Shown: piece after piece, positions 58,912 to 63,175 of the stretch
Position numbering within the stretch: the stretch's first letter is position 1
Layout: each line of letters begins with the position of its first letter
From: Alphaproteobacteria bacterium
Lineage (GTDB): Bacteria; Pseudomonadota; Alphaproteobacteria; Elsterales; Elsteraceae
Direction of reading: 5' to 3'
DNA length: 64,000 nucleotides
NCBI GenBank assembly: GCA_004292755.1
Contig: RDXE01000038.1
Span: forward strand, 1-64,000
The notes under the pieces: generated by a model
Seen by the model: only the letters and a program-made list of their open reading frames with translations
Database searches by the model: none
What the model was told of the DNA's origin: nothing
Position numbers and translations under genes: made by a program

Positions 58912-59047
58912 CGATAGCCGGAGAAGGCCAGCGTCACGCACAGGGTCCGCACCTGCCGATACGTGCGCTCGTTCGCGGTGAGATACTTCCGGAAGCCGTC
59001 GGCGGCAGCGTCCGGGCCAACCGATGCCGCCCAAAGCCCGCACCACG
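58912..59047 (-). pseudogene. Reverse-strand coding remnant cut by the IS256 fragment
   Basis: A minus-strand frame reads DAAADGFRKYLTANERTY and onward to an aromatic C-terminus (LAFSGYRICF). It looks like the tail of a gene whose upstream part has been lost where the IS256 remnant begins. An alternating pattern ending in Phe would fit an outer-membrane barrel, but the assignment is weak. Confidence 0.3.
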
Positions 59048-59526
59048 CCGCCTTCCCCGACACGCTGGTCCAGACGTGCATTGTTCACCTGCTCCGCCAC
59101 AGCATGGAGTTCGCCGCGTGGAAGGACCGCAAGGCGGTCGCCGCCGCCCTGAAGACGATCTACGATGCGCTGGACGCGACGGCGGCCGAGGCCGCCCTGA
59201 CCGCCTTCGAGACCGGGCCGTGGGGCGCCAAGTACCAGGCGATCGGCAAGGCGTGGCAGGAGGTCATCCCGTTCTTTGCCTTCCCCCGCGAAGTGCGGCG
59301 CATTCTCTACACGACGAACGCGATCGAGGCCCTGAACGCAAAGCTCCGCCGCGCGGTTCGGGTCCGGGGGCATTTTCCGAACGACGAGGCCGCACTGAAG
59401 CTGTTGTTCCTGACCTTGAATCGTGCCGAGAAAGACTGGAAGATGCCGCCACGCGAGTGGAGCGCCGCCCGGGCCCAGATGGCCGTCCTGTTCGGTGATC
59501 GCTTCGCCAAGGCGATGGGCGCCTGA
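59047..59526 (+). pseudogene. IS256-family transposase, C-terminal fragment
   Basis: About 160 residues from FPDTLVQTCIVHLLRHS to the end, with TTNAIEALNAKLRRAVRVRG (the conserved C-terminal part with the catalytic Glu) and FFAFPREVRRILYTTNAIE. The N-terminal DNA-binding region and the two catalytic Asp are absent, so it is inactive. Confidence 0.85.
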
Positions 59527-59631: not shown

Positions 59632-59781
59632 GCCTGTAATTGGACGCCGATGCACATCATCGAGCGCCTCGTCGGCCGCCTCAAGCACTTCCGCCGCGTC
59701 GCCACGCGCTACGAGAAGCTCGCAGCCAAGTACCTCGGCATGGTCGAGATCGCCGCCATCCGGCTCATGCTGCGGGTTTGA
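59632..59781 (+). pseudogene. IS5-family transposase tail fragment
   Basis: The frame ending at TGA 59779-59781 reads MHIIERLVGRLKHFRRVATR from ATG 59650, followed by YEKLAAKYLGMVEIAAIRL, the usual C-terminus of IS5-group transposases. Only about 50 residues remain. Confidence 0.75.
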
Positions 59782-59831
59782 GAACAGGAACTAGGCAATG
59801 TACGCCGAACCAAACAAAACCAATCTCCCCG

Positions 59832-60707
59832 TTAGTTTTGCTGACGTGCTACCCATTGTGTGTGTTCGCGTGAAAAGGCTTGCTCAGCCTCATTAACAAA
59901 CGAAGCAAAATCATCGGCGCTCTTGATATCGCCTATTTTGGCCTGAAGGATGCCAATTTCATGTGCCGTAAGCGTGTAGGACGAAGCTAATTCGTTGAAT
60001 TTCTTGATTTGTGTCCAGCCAATAATACTTGCTGCAATAACTATCAAAGGATCGGTCGGCCAATATGACTCCGGATATGAGCTTACGTTCTTCACTGCAA
60101 CGAGGGCGGCAATAATATATACTATCGCACCAGCACCAATCCACAATCTACTAATTCTCTTATTGAATCCTGCTTTCCTAGCATACCATGCCCGTTGCTC
60201 GCGAATTCGATTCACATCATAATATTCTTTTTTTTCGTCGAGTTGCAGCTTTCGCACTGCTTCCATTGTCTCGGTAACTTGCGCATCGTCAGCGGATTCT
60301 GCCGGTAGATGCTCTCCTATATGTTGATTGGCGCGTAGTATTTCTGTTAGATAGTTACGGAACTCTGCACGCCTTTGTATTTCACTGTCAGCGAGCCCAA
60401 ATGGCTCAGCAGACATGCAATAGCGCCAGGAGCTTGTTTTTACTGATTCTGCCAATGCACGGCCCTTATACCATTGTTGCTCAGGTTTACTCTGGCCTCT
60501 CCACAAAAGAAGGGCCAGAAGCGCGATAAAAATAACCAAATAACATACCACTGCCGCTCGCGAGCGTAAAATATCAAGCGACAGAATCGAAACTAATATA
60601 AGTAAAACATACTCTGAACAAATAACAGCAAGATATTTATTCTGTGATTTTTCTGAAAGTCTACTTGCTGCTTTATAGATCGCAGGAAATTCAAACGTTA
60701 GCATCAT
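59832..60707 (-). CDS. SLATT/DUF4231-type four-helix membrane protein (candidate defence effector)
   Basis: 291 aa. Two membrane hairpins: helices at about 24-44 and 51-69, then 186-206 and 219-235. The segment after the first hairpin, WYKGRALAESVKTSSWRY at 79-96, and the RIREQRAWYARKAGFN stretch before the second hairpin match SLATT (SMODS/SLOG-associated two-TM) proteins of DUF4231 type. These are predicted membrane-disrupting effectors that sense a nucleotide signal. It is coupled to the TIR-like gene by a 4 bp overlap (60704-60707). Base composition is clearly more AT-rich than the rest of the window, so the pair was likely acquired. Confidence 0.72.
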   Translation of the reverse strand: MMLTFEFPAIYKAASRLSEKSQNKYLAVICSEYVLLILVSILSLDILRSRAAVVCYLVIFIALLALLLWRGQSKPEQQWYKGRALAESVKTSSWRYCMSAEPFGLADSEIQRRAEFRNYLTEILRANQHIGEHLPAESADDAQVTETMEAVRKLQLDEKKEYYDVNRIREQRAWYARKAGFNKRISRLWIGAGAIVYIIAALVAVKNVSSYPESYWPTDPLIVIAASIIGWTQIKKFNELASSYTLTAHEIGILQAKIGDIKSADDFASFVNEAEQAFSREHTQWVARQQN

Positions 60708-61114
60708 GGAATTAGCTCTCTAATTGCAGCAATTATTGATGATGTCATCTGAGGAACCAGTCTACTGGAGTAATCTTGTACCACCTTCGGAGTCTGTTGC
60801 GCACCTCTACGCCTGATGCCAACGATCGGCTTCCCTAAGGTACGAGCAAACTCCATTTCGAATAAAATCCAATCGCTGTGATTTATGTACATGCCGGACA
60901 TGATTATTACACAATCTACTGGCCGAATCTGTTGGCGAATCTCCTCTTGCAGTTGGCTTTTATTCATACGAGGAAAAGCGCCGTCGTAAGGAACTGAGAA
61001 GTTTGACCACTTGAAGTTAGATGCCTCGTTAAGCATGCTGACAACACGGGTGTATCTCTCGCTATACTCCCATGCGTGGCTGATGAAGAGCCTATAATTG
61101 TGCAGGTAGGGCAT
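60704..61114 (-). CDS. TIR-like protein (ThsB/DUF1863 type)
   Basis: 136 aa. It begins YRLFISHAWEYSERYTRVVSM, then FKWSNFSVPYDGAF, the pattern of the TIR-like MTH538/ThsB family that makes cyclic-ADP-ribose-type signals from NAD in Thoeris defence. VDCVIIMSGMYINHSDWIL and FEMEFARTLGKPIVGI follow; E86 or E88 sits where the catalytic glutamate is expected. GAGGAGGT is 5 bp before ATG 61114, and a promoter with TTGGCA-N17-TATACT lies upstream. It is the first gene of a two-gene operon. Confidence 0.75.
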   Translation of the reverse strand: MPYLHNYRLFISHAWEYSERYTRVVSMLNEASNFKWSNFSVPYDGAFPRMNKSQLQEEIRQQIRPVDCVIIMSGMYINHSDWILFEMEFARTLGKPIVGIRRRGAQQTPKVVQDYSSRLVPQMTSSIIAAIRELIP

Positions 61115-61465
61115 GGAGGACCTCCTCAGGTGATTATTGCAAGATAACTTAGCTGCCGATCTGACGCAGTATAATGCAATGCTTGTGCAATGCCAATTGC
61201 ACAGACCTTATAGCCCTCCAGCAGCTCAACGACACGAGCACTAGCCGAAATTCCCCAAGTGGCGTTCCGTCTGACGTGAGTTTCGCCTGAATCCGACCGC
61301 TGGACAAGCATTTCCCGTCCCGAGCGGCGTCGTCGGGCGCGCAAGGCGCTGGAACAGGGCAGATCGGCCCGCGAAGCCGCCGTGTTGTGCTCCGGTGGTG
61401 GTGTTTTTCAGCGCAGCGGGCAGACCTGTCCTGCCGTTTTCGTTGAGTTTGGACGTGCATCGCAG
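61115..61465. other. Region between the TIR-like operon and the IS1380 element
   Basis: 351 bp. The left part holds the operon promoter and ribosome site. From about 61260 the sequence becomes GC-rich and probably includes an end of the IS1380-type element. No gene is seen. Confidence 0.45.
61168..61196 (-). promoter_or_regulatory. Sigma70-like promoter of the TIR-SLATT operon
   Basis: On the minus strand TTGGCA (61196-61191), 17 bp, TATACT (61173-61168): five of six matches in each box and ideal spacing. It would start transcription near 61161, about 47 nt before the TIR-like ATG. TGCAATGC occurs twice at 61175-61182 and 61186-61193, an 11 bp period inside the promoter, which could be a regulator site. 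Confidence 0.75.
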
Positions 61466-62870
61466 TCATGCGCATGACGGAGGCGCTCGCAATCGGCGGA
61501 TGGCGGCGAGGATGGCGCGGACCATCGGGCCGGTGACGGCCACCTCGGCCAGCTGGAAGGTGATGGCGCGGGCATGGCGCACAACGCGGGCGCCGAGCTT
61601 GATCAGTTTGAGTTGCAGGCTGGTCAGGGACCAGTCCGCCATCGCCTCGGGCAGTTCGATGCAGCGCAGGAAGGTGGCCAGGTTGTAGGCCAGCGCGTGC
61701 AGTTGCAGTCGCACCTCGTTGTCGCGGAACTTCCGGCATGACAGGCGCGTCGAGCGCAAGGCGTACTTGCCCTCCTTGATGTGCTGCTCGGCGGTGCCGC
61801 GCTGGTTGTAGAACCTCACCACCCAGTCTGGATCCATCGGCAGGTTGGTGACGATGAAGCCGACACGCGGGAACAGCTCGCCCGGGTGCCATTCGATCTT
61901 GGCGATCACCCGGCGTTCCTTGTCCCAGGACGCCGCCTGATAGTCGAAGTCCTCGAAGAACCGCTTGACCTTGGTCAGCGAGGGCCGCCCCACAGGGCGC
62001 GTCAGCCGATGCGCGATCTTCTCGCGCAGGACGTTGTTGGCGGGCAGCCGGATGGCGTAGAAATAGCCCGTCTCTTCCAGCCGCTCATAAATCGCCGGGA
62101 TCGCATAGGCGGCGTCGGCGCGGAAAAACCGCAGGATGTCCCGCGTTGCATACCGGGCGATCACCGGATCAAGGACGTCCCGCCAGCCATCTGCGCTGTG
62201 GACGTTGCCATGGCGCAGGGCGCAGCGTTCCAGCATGCCGAACTGGTTGAACAGGAAGTTGGGGTGATAGCAGGTGCAGTCGAAGTGGCCATTCCAGGCC
62301 GCACCTTCCTGATCGCCATGGGTGGGGCTGACCGAGCTGTCCATGTCCAGCACGATGAACTTCAGCCCGTTGCGGTCATGAAACCGGTCGATCCATTGGC
62401 CGTTCAGGTCGGCCAGCGCTGTCCGGTTCTCGGGCTGTGCCAGTGTCTCGGTCTCGAACCGTCCCATCTGCGAGGCCGAAGCCGCTTGCGCATCGACGGC
62501 ACGGTCGCCCACGATTTGCCGCATGACCGAATCAATGGCCAGTCGATCTGCATCGTTGACGTCCTCGTATCCGGCCAGTCCCCGAACACCGATTGCCTGA
62601 ACAACCCGTCAAGCCGATGGACCGTGTTCTTGCCGCGCCGGGTGTCGCGTAGTGCTGTTGCCGCCCGATCGGACAGCCCGAGCGCGTCATCCAACTCGCG
62701 CATCACCAGCAGGCCGCCATCGGAGCTGAGCTGCGTGCCGCGAAATTCCAGCCGTACACGAGGGTCGAACTCGACCCGATCTGCCCGCTGCAAGCCCGCA
62801 CCCTCTGGGTGATCCATGAAACGCGCCCCTCACAGCAGTCAACACCATGATTTTTAACGGAAATAACACG
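61381..62870 (-). mobile_element. IS1380-family insertion sequence, approximate extent
   Basis: The element surrounding the frameshifted transposase. Ends are approximate: weakly matching CGTGTT-starting segments at 61381 and 62870 (inverted) might be its termini, but the similarity is too short to be sure, and no target duplication was recognised. Confidence 0.4.
61466..62817 (-). pseudogene. IS1380-family transposase with frameshift
   Basis: The N-terminal part (62817 to about 62580) has FRGTQLSSDGGLLVMRELDD and the C-terminal part (to 61466) has VLDMDSSVSPTHGDQEG, FFRADAAYAIPAIYE and FYNQRGTAEQHIKEGK, the DDE residues of IS1380. The two halves together give about 450 residues, the family length, but they are in different frames. 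The shift lies near 62570-62590, where LFRQSVFG should run into LAGYEDVND. Likely an inactivating indel; a sequence error is also possible. Confidence 0.85.
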
Positions 62871-63175
62871 TTCACGACAGCGAAATCAGCGAGTTACTTG
62901 GGGAATGTGGGACTACGCAGATATGGCTGAACAGGTCAGTAGTAGGAAAGCAAGAAAGATCGGCAAGTAGTCGATACCAGAAGAGTATCCCTTACCATTC
63001 AAAATCAAGCCCAGTGGCCATGAGACCCCGACCGAATACCATCGACTGCATTTATTCTCGACCGGCAATGTCGACAAAGACTGTAAGGCTTGCAGGTCTG
63101 CAACTGCGCCAAACAAAACACCTCCCCCCAGTTGCCTGAGGGGAGGTGCCATAGCAGCCCGACGGAGCGATGGGA
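62818..63175. other. Non-coding stretch after the transport gene
   Basis: 358 bp between the IS1380 transposase start and the substrate-binding protein stop. It holds the IS end and the terminator at 63111-63148; I see nothing else. Confidence 0.5.
63111..63148 (-). terminator. Intrinsic terminator of the substrate-binding protein gene
   Basis: On the minus strand CACCTCCCC pairs with GGGGAGGTG (9 bp stem, 63119-63127 with 63140-63148, 12 nt loop), followed by TTTTGTTT. It starts 28 bp after the TGA of the transport gene. Confidence 0.88.

Follow-up and report, generated by a model that had tools for sequence, protein, structure and literature searches.

In Thoeris systems of any type, a ThsB-type TIR protein with a catalytic glutamate is encoded in an operon with an effector, which is activated by an NAD-derived signal of the TIR's making, and the system gives protection from phage. 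The type I effector, ThsA, has SIR2 and SLOG domains. In type II, a TIR protein is paired with a TM-Macro ThsA, the signal being His-ADPR (PMC11204291, PMC12948488). In type IV, the product of the TIR protein, N7-cADPR, activates a caspase-like protease (Rousset 2025, as cited in PMC12847820). The name "Thoeris type III" appears in PMC12390725. A TIR protein and two TM proteins from the P2-like phage AC1 block phages in E. coli (PMC9122126). Finally, Iyer, Burroughs, Anantharaman, and Aravind (2022; PMC9503650) described how, in Firmicutes phages, TIR genes adjoin genes for 2TM SLATT proteins, and, citing Burroughs 2015, they predicted SLATT to be a membrane effector regulated by ADPr derivatives. 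SLATT proteins have repeatedly been predicted to act as nucleotide-gated membrane effectors in bacterial immunity, and no solved structure of any of them was found.

The pair of genes considered here, from a 64,000-nucleotide stretch of alphaproteobacterial DNA (the window), is a variant of the last of these arrangements. As in the neighborhoods of PMC9503650, a TIR gene stands beside a gene encoding a SLATT protein, predicted to be an effector gated by ADPr derivatives, but the protein has two fused SLATT domains, not the 2TM SLATT found in Firmicutes phages. The newness implied by the first-pass annotation of the window was thus overstated, as both the pairing and the gated-effector role had been described; what differs is the fusion and the alphaproteobacterial host.

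The pair resembles type IV Thoeris (known here by description) in its two-gene layout and in that its TIR subfamily adjoins Peptidase_C14-like proteases in 10 loci, the caspase-linked and SLATT-linked TIR groups sharing one tree. The type IV effector, however, is a caspase-like protease, which is absent from the window's pair, the effector here being a double-SLATT membrane protein. With type II Thoeris, the pair shares the combination of a TIR signal maker and a membrane effector, and some other SLATT-linked TIRs are EcThsB2-like, but by Pfam the partner has no Macro domain, and the window's TIR is unlike EcThsB2 in sequence, with Phe at the position of its special Tyr. Nor does Pfam find either the SIR2 or the SLOG domain of type I. 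The family calls and the co-occurrence behind the proposal of a Thoeris-like defense system hold; the pair is not a member of type I or II. If the effector of type III should prove to be SLATT_3-SLATT_1, then the pair would belong to that type. The phage AC1 system likewise joins a TIR with membrane partners and protects E. coli, but it has three genes rather than two. Membership in CBASS was ruled out, since no CD-NTase gene lies beside the effector gene, whose neighbors are the TIR gene and transposases.

The gene pair and its setting

The features of the locus are as follows:

58963 to 59526, plus strand: C-terminal part of a Mutator/IS256-type transposase, a fragment downstream of the pair (profile match)
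59832 to 60707, minus strand: gene encoding a SLATT_3-SLATT_1 fusion protein of 291 amino acids, candidate membrane effector (open reading frame, Pfam, NCBIfam, AF2 model)
59853 to 60221, minus strand: SLATT_1 domain, residues 163-285, with a hydrophobic stretch at 188-206, a short helix at 219-235, and a conserved C-terminal AFSREHTQW motif (Pfam, alignment, AF2 model, hydropathy)
60228 to 60686, minus strand: SLATT_3 domain, residues 8-160, with hydrophobic stretches at about 26-44 and 51-69 (Pfam, AF2 model, hydropathy)
60704 to 60707, minus strand: ATGA, 4-bp stop/start overlap, translational coupling (read in the sequence)
60704 to 61114, minus strand: gene encoding a ThsB-type TIR protein of 136 amino acids (open reading frame, Pfam, PADLOC, AF2 model)
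60857 to 60859, minus strand: codon for Glu86, the putative catalytic glutamate of a WxxxE motif (W82xxxE86)
61121 to 61127, minus strand: GAGGAGG, resembling a Shine-Dalgarno sequence, 6 nt upstream of the start codon of the TIR gene (read in the sequence)
61168 to 61196, minus strand: weak sigma70-like promoter candidate, TTGGCA-17-TATACT
61245 to 62911, minus strand: IS1380-type element upstream of the pair (transposase match and candidate terminal inverted repeats)

The 4-bp overlap that the first-pass annotation had reported is plain in the sequence, and the same kind of junction occurs at 21 of 39 same-strand junctions where TIR lies upstream of SLATT. The claim that the pair has its own promoter fared worse: one sigma70-like site was found where 2.3 are expected by chance, and the site was discarded as evidence. 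The AT-rich setting was correctly noted (GC is 0.42-0.48 over 59750-61249 and rises to 0.63-0.70 on either side). Transposases do lie on both sides of the pair, but to call both of them remnants goes too far, as the IS1380-type element on the right has almost its full length, with a candidate pair of terminal inverted repeats of 16 nt (61245-61260 and 62896-62911) and a transposase (DDE_Tnp_1_4, 61466-62817) split over two overlapping frames. No other defense gene was seen adjoining the pair, and a search of the window for tRNA genes gave none. The genome as a whole carries a single copy each of the TIR gene and the double-SLATT gene.

Insertion sequences on both sides raise the question of whether the copy in the window is stranded between them and in decay. 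Such a fate would fit the long branch of its TIR in the tree (0.54), the frameshifted TIR of a related pair (L008), and the sequence VPQM in place of the V.W that each of the 30 other dual-SLATT TIRs under comparison retains, the loss of the Trp being unique. The copy may indeed be weakened, since its TIR lacks a residue kept by those 30. Nonetheless, both frames are intact, every family-invariant residue is present in both proteins, and neither the Shine-Dalgarno-like sequence nor the overlap has been lost. Furthermore, differences from relatives amount to 0.60-0.68 at third codon positions but to 0.19-0.39 at the first two, so that constraint on the protein is still visible. A decaying remnant is an unlikely description of the copy.

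The TIR protein

The call of the first gene as TIR-like, of the ThsB kind, is borne out by Pfam, where ThsB_TIR scores 47.1 bits against a cut-off of 21.2, and by the PADLOC ThsB model (E=2.4e-10). Structure prediction, suggested as a check on both proteins, gave for this one an AF2 model (pLDDT 82) that a fold search finds to resemble TIR and nucleoside-deoxyribosyltransferase-like Rossmann folds. The protein is a candidate for both NAD-processing signal maker and sensor of infection.

Two residues had been put forward as key, E86 and E88. Glu86 is invariant in all 58 SLATT-linked partner TIRs aligned, the sole such residue in an alignment with 22% mean column identity, and it persists even in partners whose identity to the window's TIR is as low as 11-20%. 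Glu88 varies among the same 58 and was ruled out as the catalytic residue. The likeness to Thoeris of any type lies in this ThsB-type TIR with its conserved glutamate and in a TIR gene that forms an operon with that of an effector (the 4-bp overlap here; TIR nearby in 53 of 60 clusters, described below). Phe10 aligns with Tyr8 of EcThsB2 in the alignment made in this analysis, and Phe or Ala is usual at the equivalent position of NADase-active TIRs (PMC11204291).

Since NAD+ depletion alone is how some TIR systems act (PMC12847820), the TIR protein could itself be a toxic NADase, with SLATT serving at the membrane as its regulator, sensor, or antidote. However, signal making is the role of stand-alone ThsB-type TIRs in Thoeris, and SLATT is the predicted effector beside reverse transcriptases and in nucleotide-related and GTPase conflict systems (PMC9122126, PMC7159879). 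A toxic TIR with SLATT in any of these accessory roles appears improbable.

The double-SLATT protein

The product of the second gene matches Pfam SLATT_3 (121 bits) and SLATT_1 (107 bits; cut-off 26.3 for each) and, also above cut-off, DUF4231 (44 bits); NCBIfam profiles agree. As the SLATT_3 and SLATT_1 profiles cover separate residue ranges, the protein consists of two fused SLATT domains, and the earlier picture of a single four-helix SLATT/DUF4231 protein was right about the family but not about a single domain. The kinship of the two halves is visible only through the two Pfam profiles: compared directly as sequences, they score 35, against a mean of 28 for shuffled sequences.

The AF2 model of this second protein is all helical (pLDDT 93.5). 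Each SLATT domain is expected to have two TM helices; three stretches are clearly hydrophobic (about 26-44, about 51-69, and 188-206), and the helix that should be the fourth to cross the membrane (219-235) is short and under the usual hydropathy cut-off. A fold search of the PDB gave no relative of solved structure below E=0.1, PADLOC models did not recognize the protein, and the literature yielded no experimental work on proteins of the SLATT_3-SLATT_1 kind. Invariant polar and aromatic residues (W79, R83, E87, K90, T91, and W94) lie in the helix that follows the second hydrophobic stretch, and further invariant clusters lie at about 163-182 and in the C-terminal helix from F278 to W285. Going by their conservation in sequence, these clusters may be positions where a ligand binds.

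Linkage of TIR and SLATT genes

When genome contigs were scanned with an alignment of SLATT proteins, 242 relatives came up and 80 of them were retained; extra loci were drawn from plasmids, predicted viral contigs, and whole-genome draws. SLATT_3-SLATT_1 proteins were clustered at 80% identity, giving 60 clusters, and a TIR gene was sought within 400 bp of each representative. Conserved co-occurrence, on which the first-pass annotation had staked its proposal, was found: a TIR gene lies within 400 bp in 53 of the 60 clusters, far above chance, in several phyla. Of the remaining seven, one is L008, where a frameshift breaks the TIR reading frame. In the other six, no TIR gene lies within 400 bp of the representative, although one of the six has members with TIR. 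TIR reading frames thin out steeply with distance from SLATT (61 of 78 are within 500 bp). Both SLATT_3 and SLATT_1 are present in all 61 relatives aligned, and the ThsB_TIR profile recognizes 57 of the 58 partner TIRs.

The arrangement is not fixed. Among the 53 clusters, TIR is upstream on the same strand in 31, downstream on the same strand in 10, on both sides in 6, convergent in 4, and mixed in 2. Since order and strand vary while the linkage persists, it seems that selection maintains the linkage and that it does not go back to a single inheritance. The divergence of TIR is correlated with that of SLATT (r=0.70 over 31 loci and 0.80 over 27 loci; permutation p<=0.0005).

Correlated divergence, like translational coupling, also fits a physical complex. 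The two proteins might form a single membrane complex activated by protein contact, with TIR sensing and SLATT opening and no diffusible nucleotide passing between them, and SLATT does lack a recognized ligand-binding domain beyond its own helices. Against this, the catalytic Glu, invariant even at 11-20% TIR identity, would be superfluous in a pure scaffold, and the same TIR subfamily adjoins caspase-fold proteases without SLATT. Activation by contact within one complex is, on balance, quite unlikely.

The full-length double-SLATT family is uncommon, present in 4 of the 399 genomes of a phylum draw, the window's own included. Pairs are carried by predicted viral contigs and by plasmids, from 5.2-kb Col-type up to conjugative. 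In phage records, there were no SLATT matches and a single TIR match, adjoining a caspase. A convergent double-SLATT/TIR pair (L004:2844-4138) occupies part of a small mobilizable Col-type plasmid of E. coli (NZ_CP103336, 5238 bp). Of the 5426 E. coli genomes covered, 4 carry such a pair, which would be a convenient test case for the laboratory. With just two genes and relatives on so small a plasmid, the pair offers a minimal system in which to seek the ligand and the pore.

Carriage by plasmids of such different sizes might suggest a function in the maintenance of plasmids or mobile elements, or in exclusion, instead of phage defense. The survey of defense surroundings that the first-pass annotation had called for, however, turned up restriction-modification, McrBC, and other TIR effectors in the vicinity of related pairs. 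The TIR subfamily is, moreover, common to the caspase-type Thoeris layout. A maintenance or exclusion function has little probability in the light of these surroundings.

Exchange of partners

Loci with the window's TIR subfamily were also gathered without using SLATT as a query. The subfamily has three kinds of partner: double SLATT, single SLATT (on prophage-like contigs, several near an integrase), and caspase-fold protease (Peptidase_C14). In the tree, the window's TIR falls in a group of 28, of which 26 are linked to double SLATT (support 100/98), with an Acidisoma TIR as nearest neighbor (99/86). Five single-SLATT TIRs lie beside this group (89/79), and ten caspase-linked TIRs lie in a separate group of 17 (89/95). 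Since the one subfamily pairs with single SLATT and caspase-fold proteases too, effectors appear to have been swapped.

Double SLATT, for its part, is also paired with very different TIRs, some of them EcThsB2-like (E=1.8e-30) and others closely resembling a Bacillus cereus TIR of known structure (8fz9). A survey of the active-site tyrosine of EcThsB2 saw only TM-Macro Thoeris carrying that residue (PMC11204291). By the alignment made here, the SLATT-paired TIR of locus L053 has Tyr at this place, where the window's TIR has Phe, so the association of the tyrosine with TM-Macro Thoeris may not be exclusive.

Proposed mechanism

The pair is probably a Thoeris-like abortive-infection module, in which the SLATT membrane effector is gated by a signal that the TIR protein derives from NAD. 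Family knowledge and the conserved glutamate make this class of mechanism the most likely one. A phage component would be recognized by the TIR protein, which would then assemble, and Glu86 would convert NAD+ to a nucleotide signal, perhaps N7-cADPR (by kinship with the caspase-linked TIRs) or another ADPR compound. The double-SLATT protein, in the inner membrane, would bind the signal through conserved helices outside the membrane, the putative site comprising W79/R83/E87/K90/T91/W94 and the C-terminal FSREHTQW helix. It would then open or disrupt the membrane, and growth would halt before phage release.

A further step can be offered tentatively, as a possibility that falls short of being probable: TIR with double SLATT may constitute a distinct type of Thoeris, its self-contained four-helix effector gated directly by a nucleotide that the TIR makes (perhaps N7-cADPR), the same TIR subfamily having swapped a protease for a membrane channel. 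If the window's TIR makes the signal of its caspase-linked relatives, then one immune signal would be wired to very different killers.

Other genes near related SLATT loci

QueC, TGT, and OGG are ancillary genes of type IV CBASS. A conserved set consisting of a TIR-TGT fusion, an OGG-like glycosylase, QueC, and TIR lies near or beside SLATT_3-SLATT_1 in nine loci (L049:1772-6372, L044, L045, L047, L084, L010, and L092, and in part L009 and L098). No CD-NTase was seen with the set near SLATT loci. It looks like the base-modification module of type IV CBASS joined to TIR signaling.

TPR-S / MAP3K_TRAF-binding proteins often neighbor TIR and SLATT genes (L010, L080, L002, L003, L068, L023, L062, L092, and L111) and perhaps act as a sensor. 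Downstream of a TIR-SLATT-TIR arrangement, L049 encodes a trypsin-like protease fused with a DNA/RNA non-specific endonuclease (L049:6782-8803), which recalls the nuclease-protease pairs of PMC12799240. Nmad2 and MazG_C genes lie near the SLATT gene in two loci (L065:1983-5004 and L061:6374-8154).
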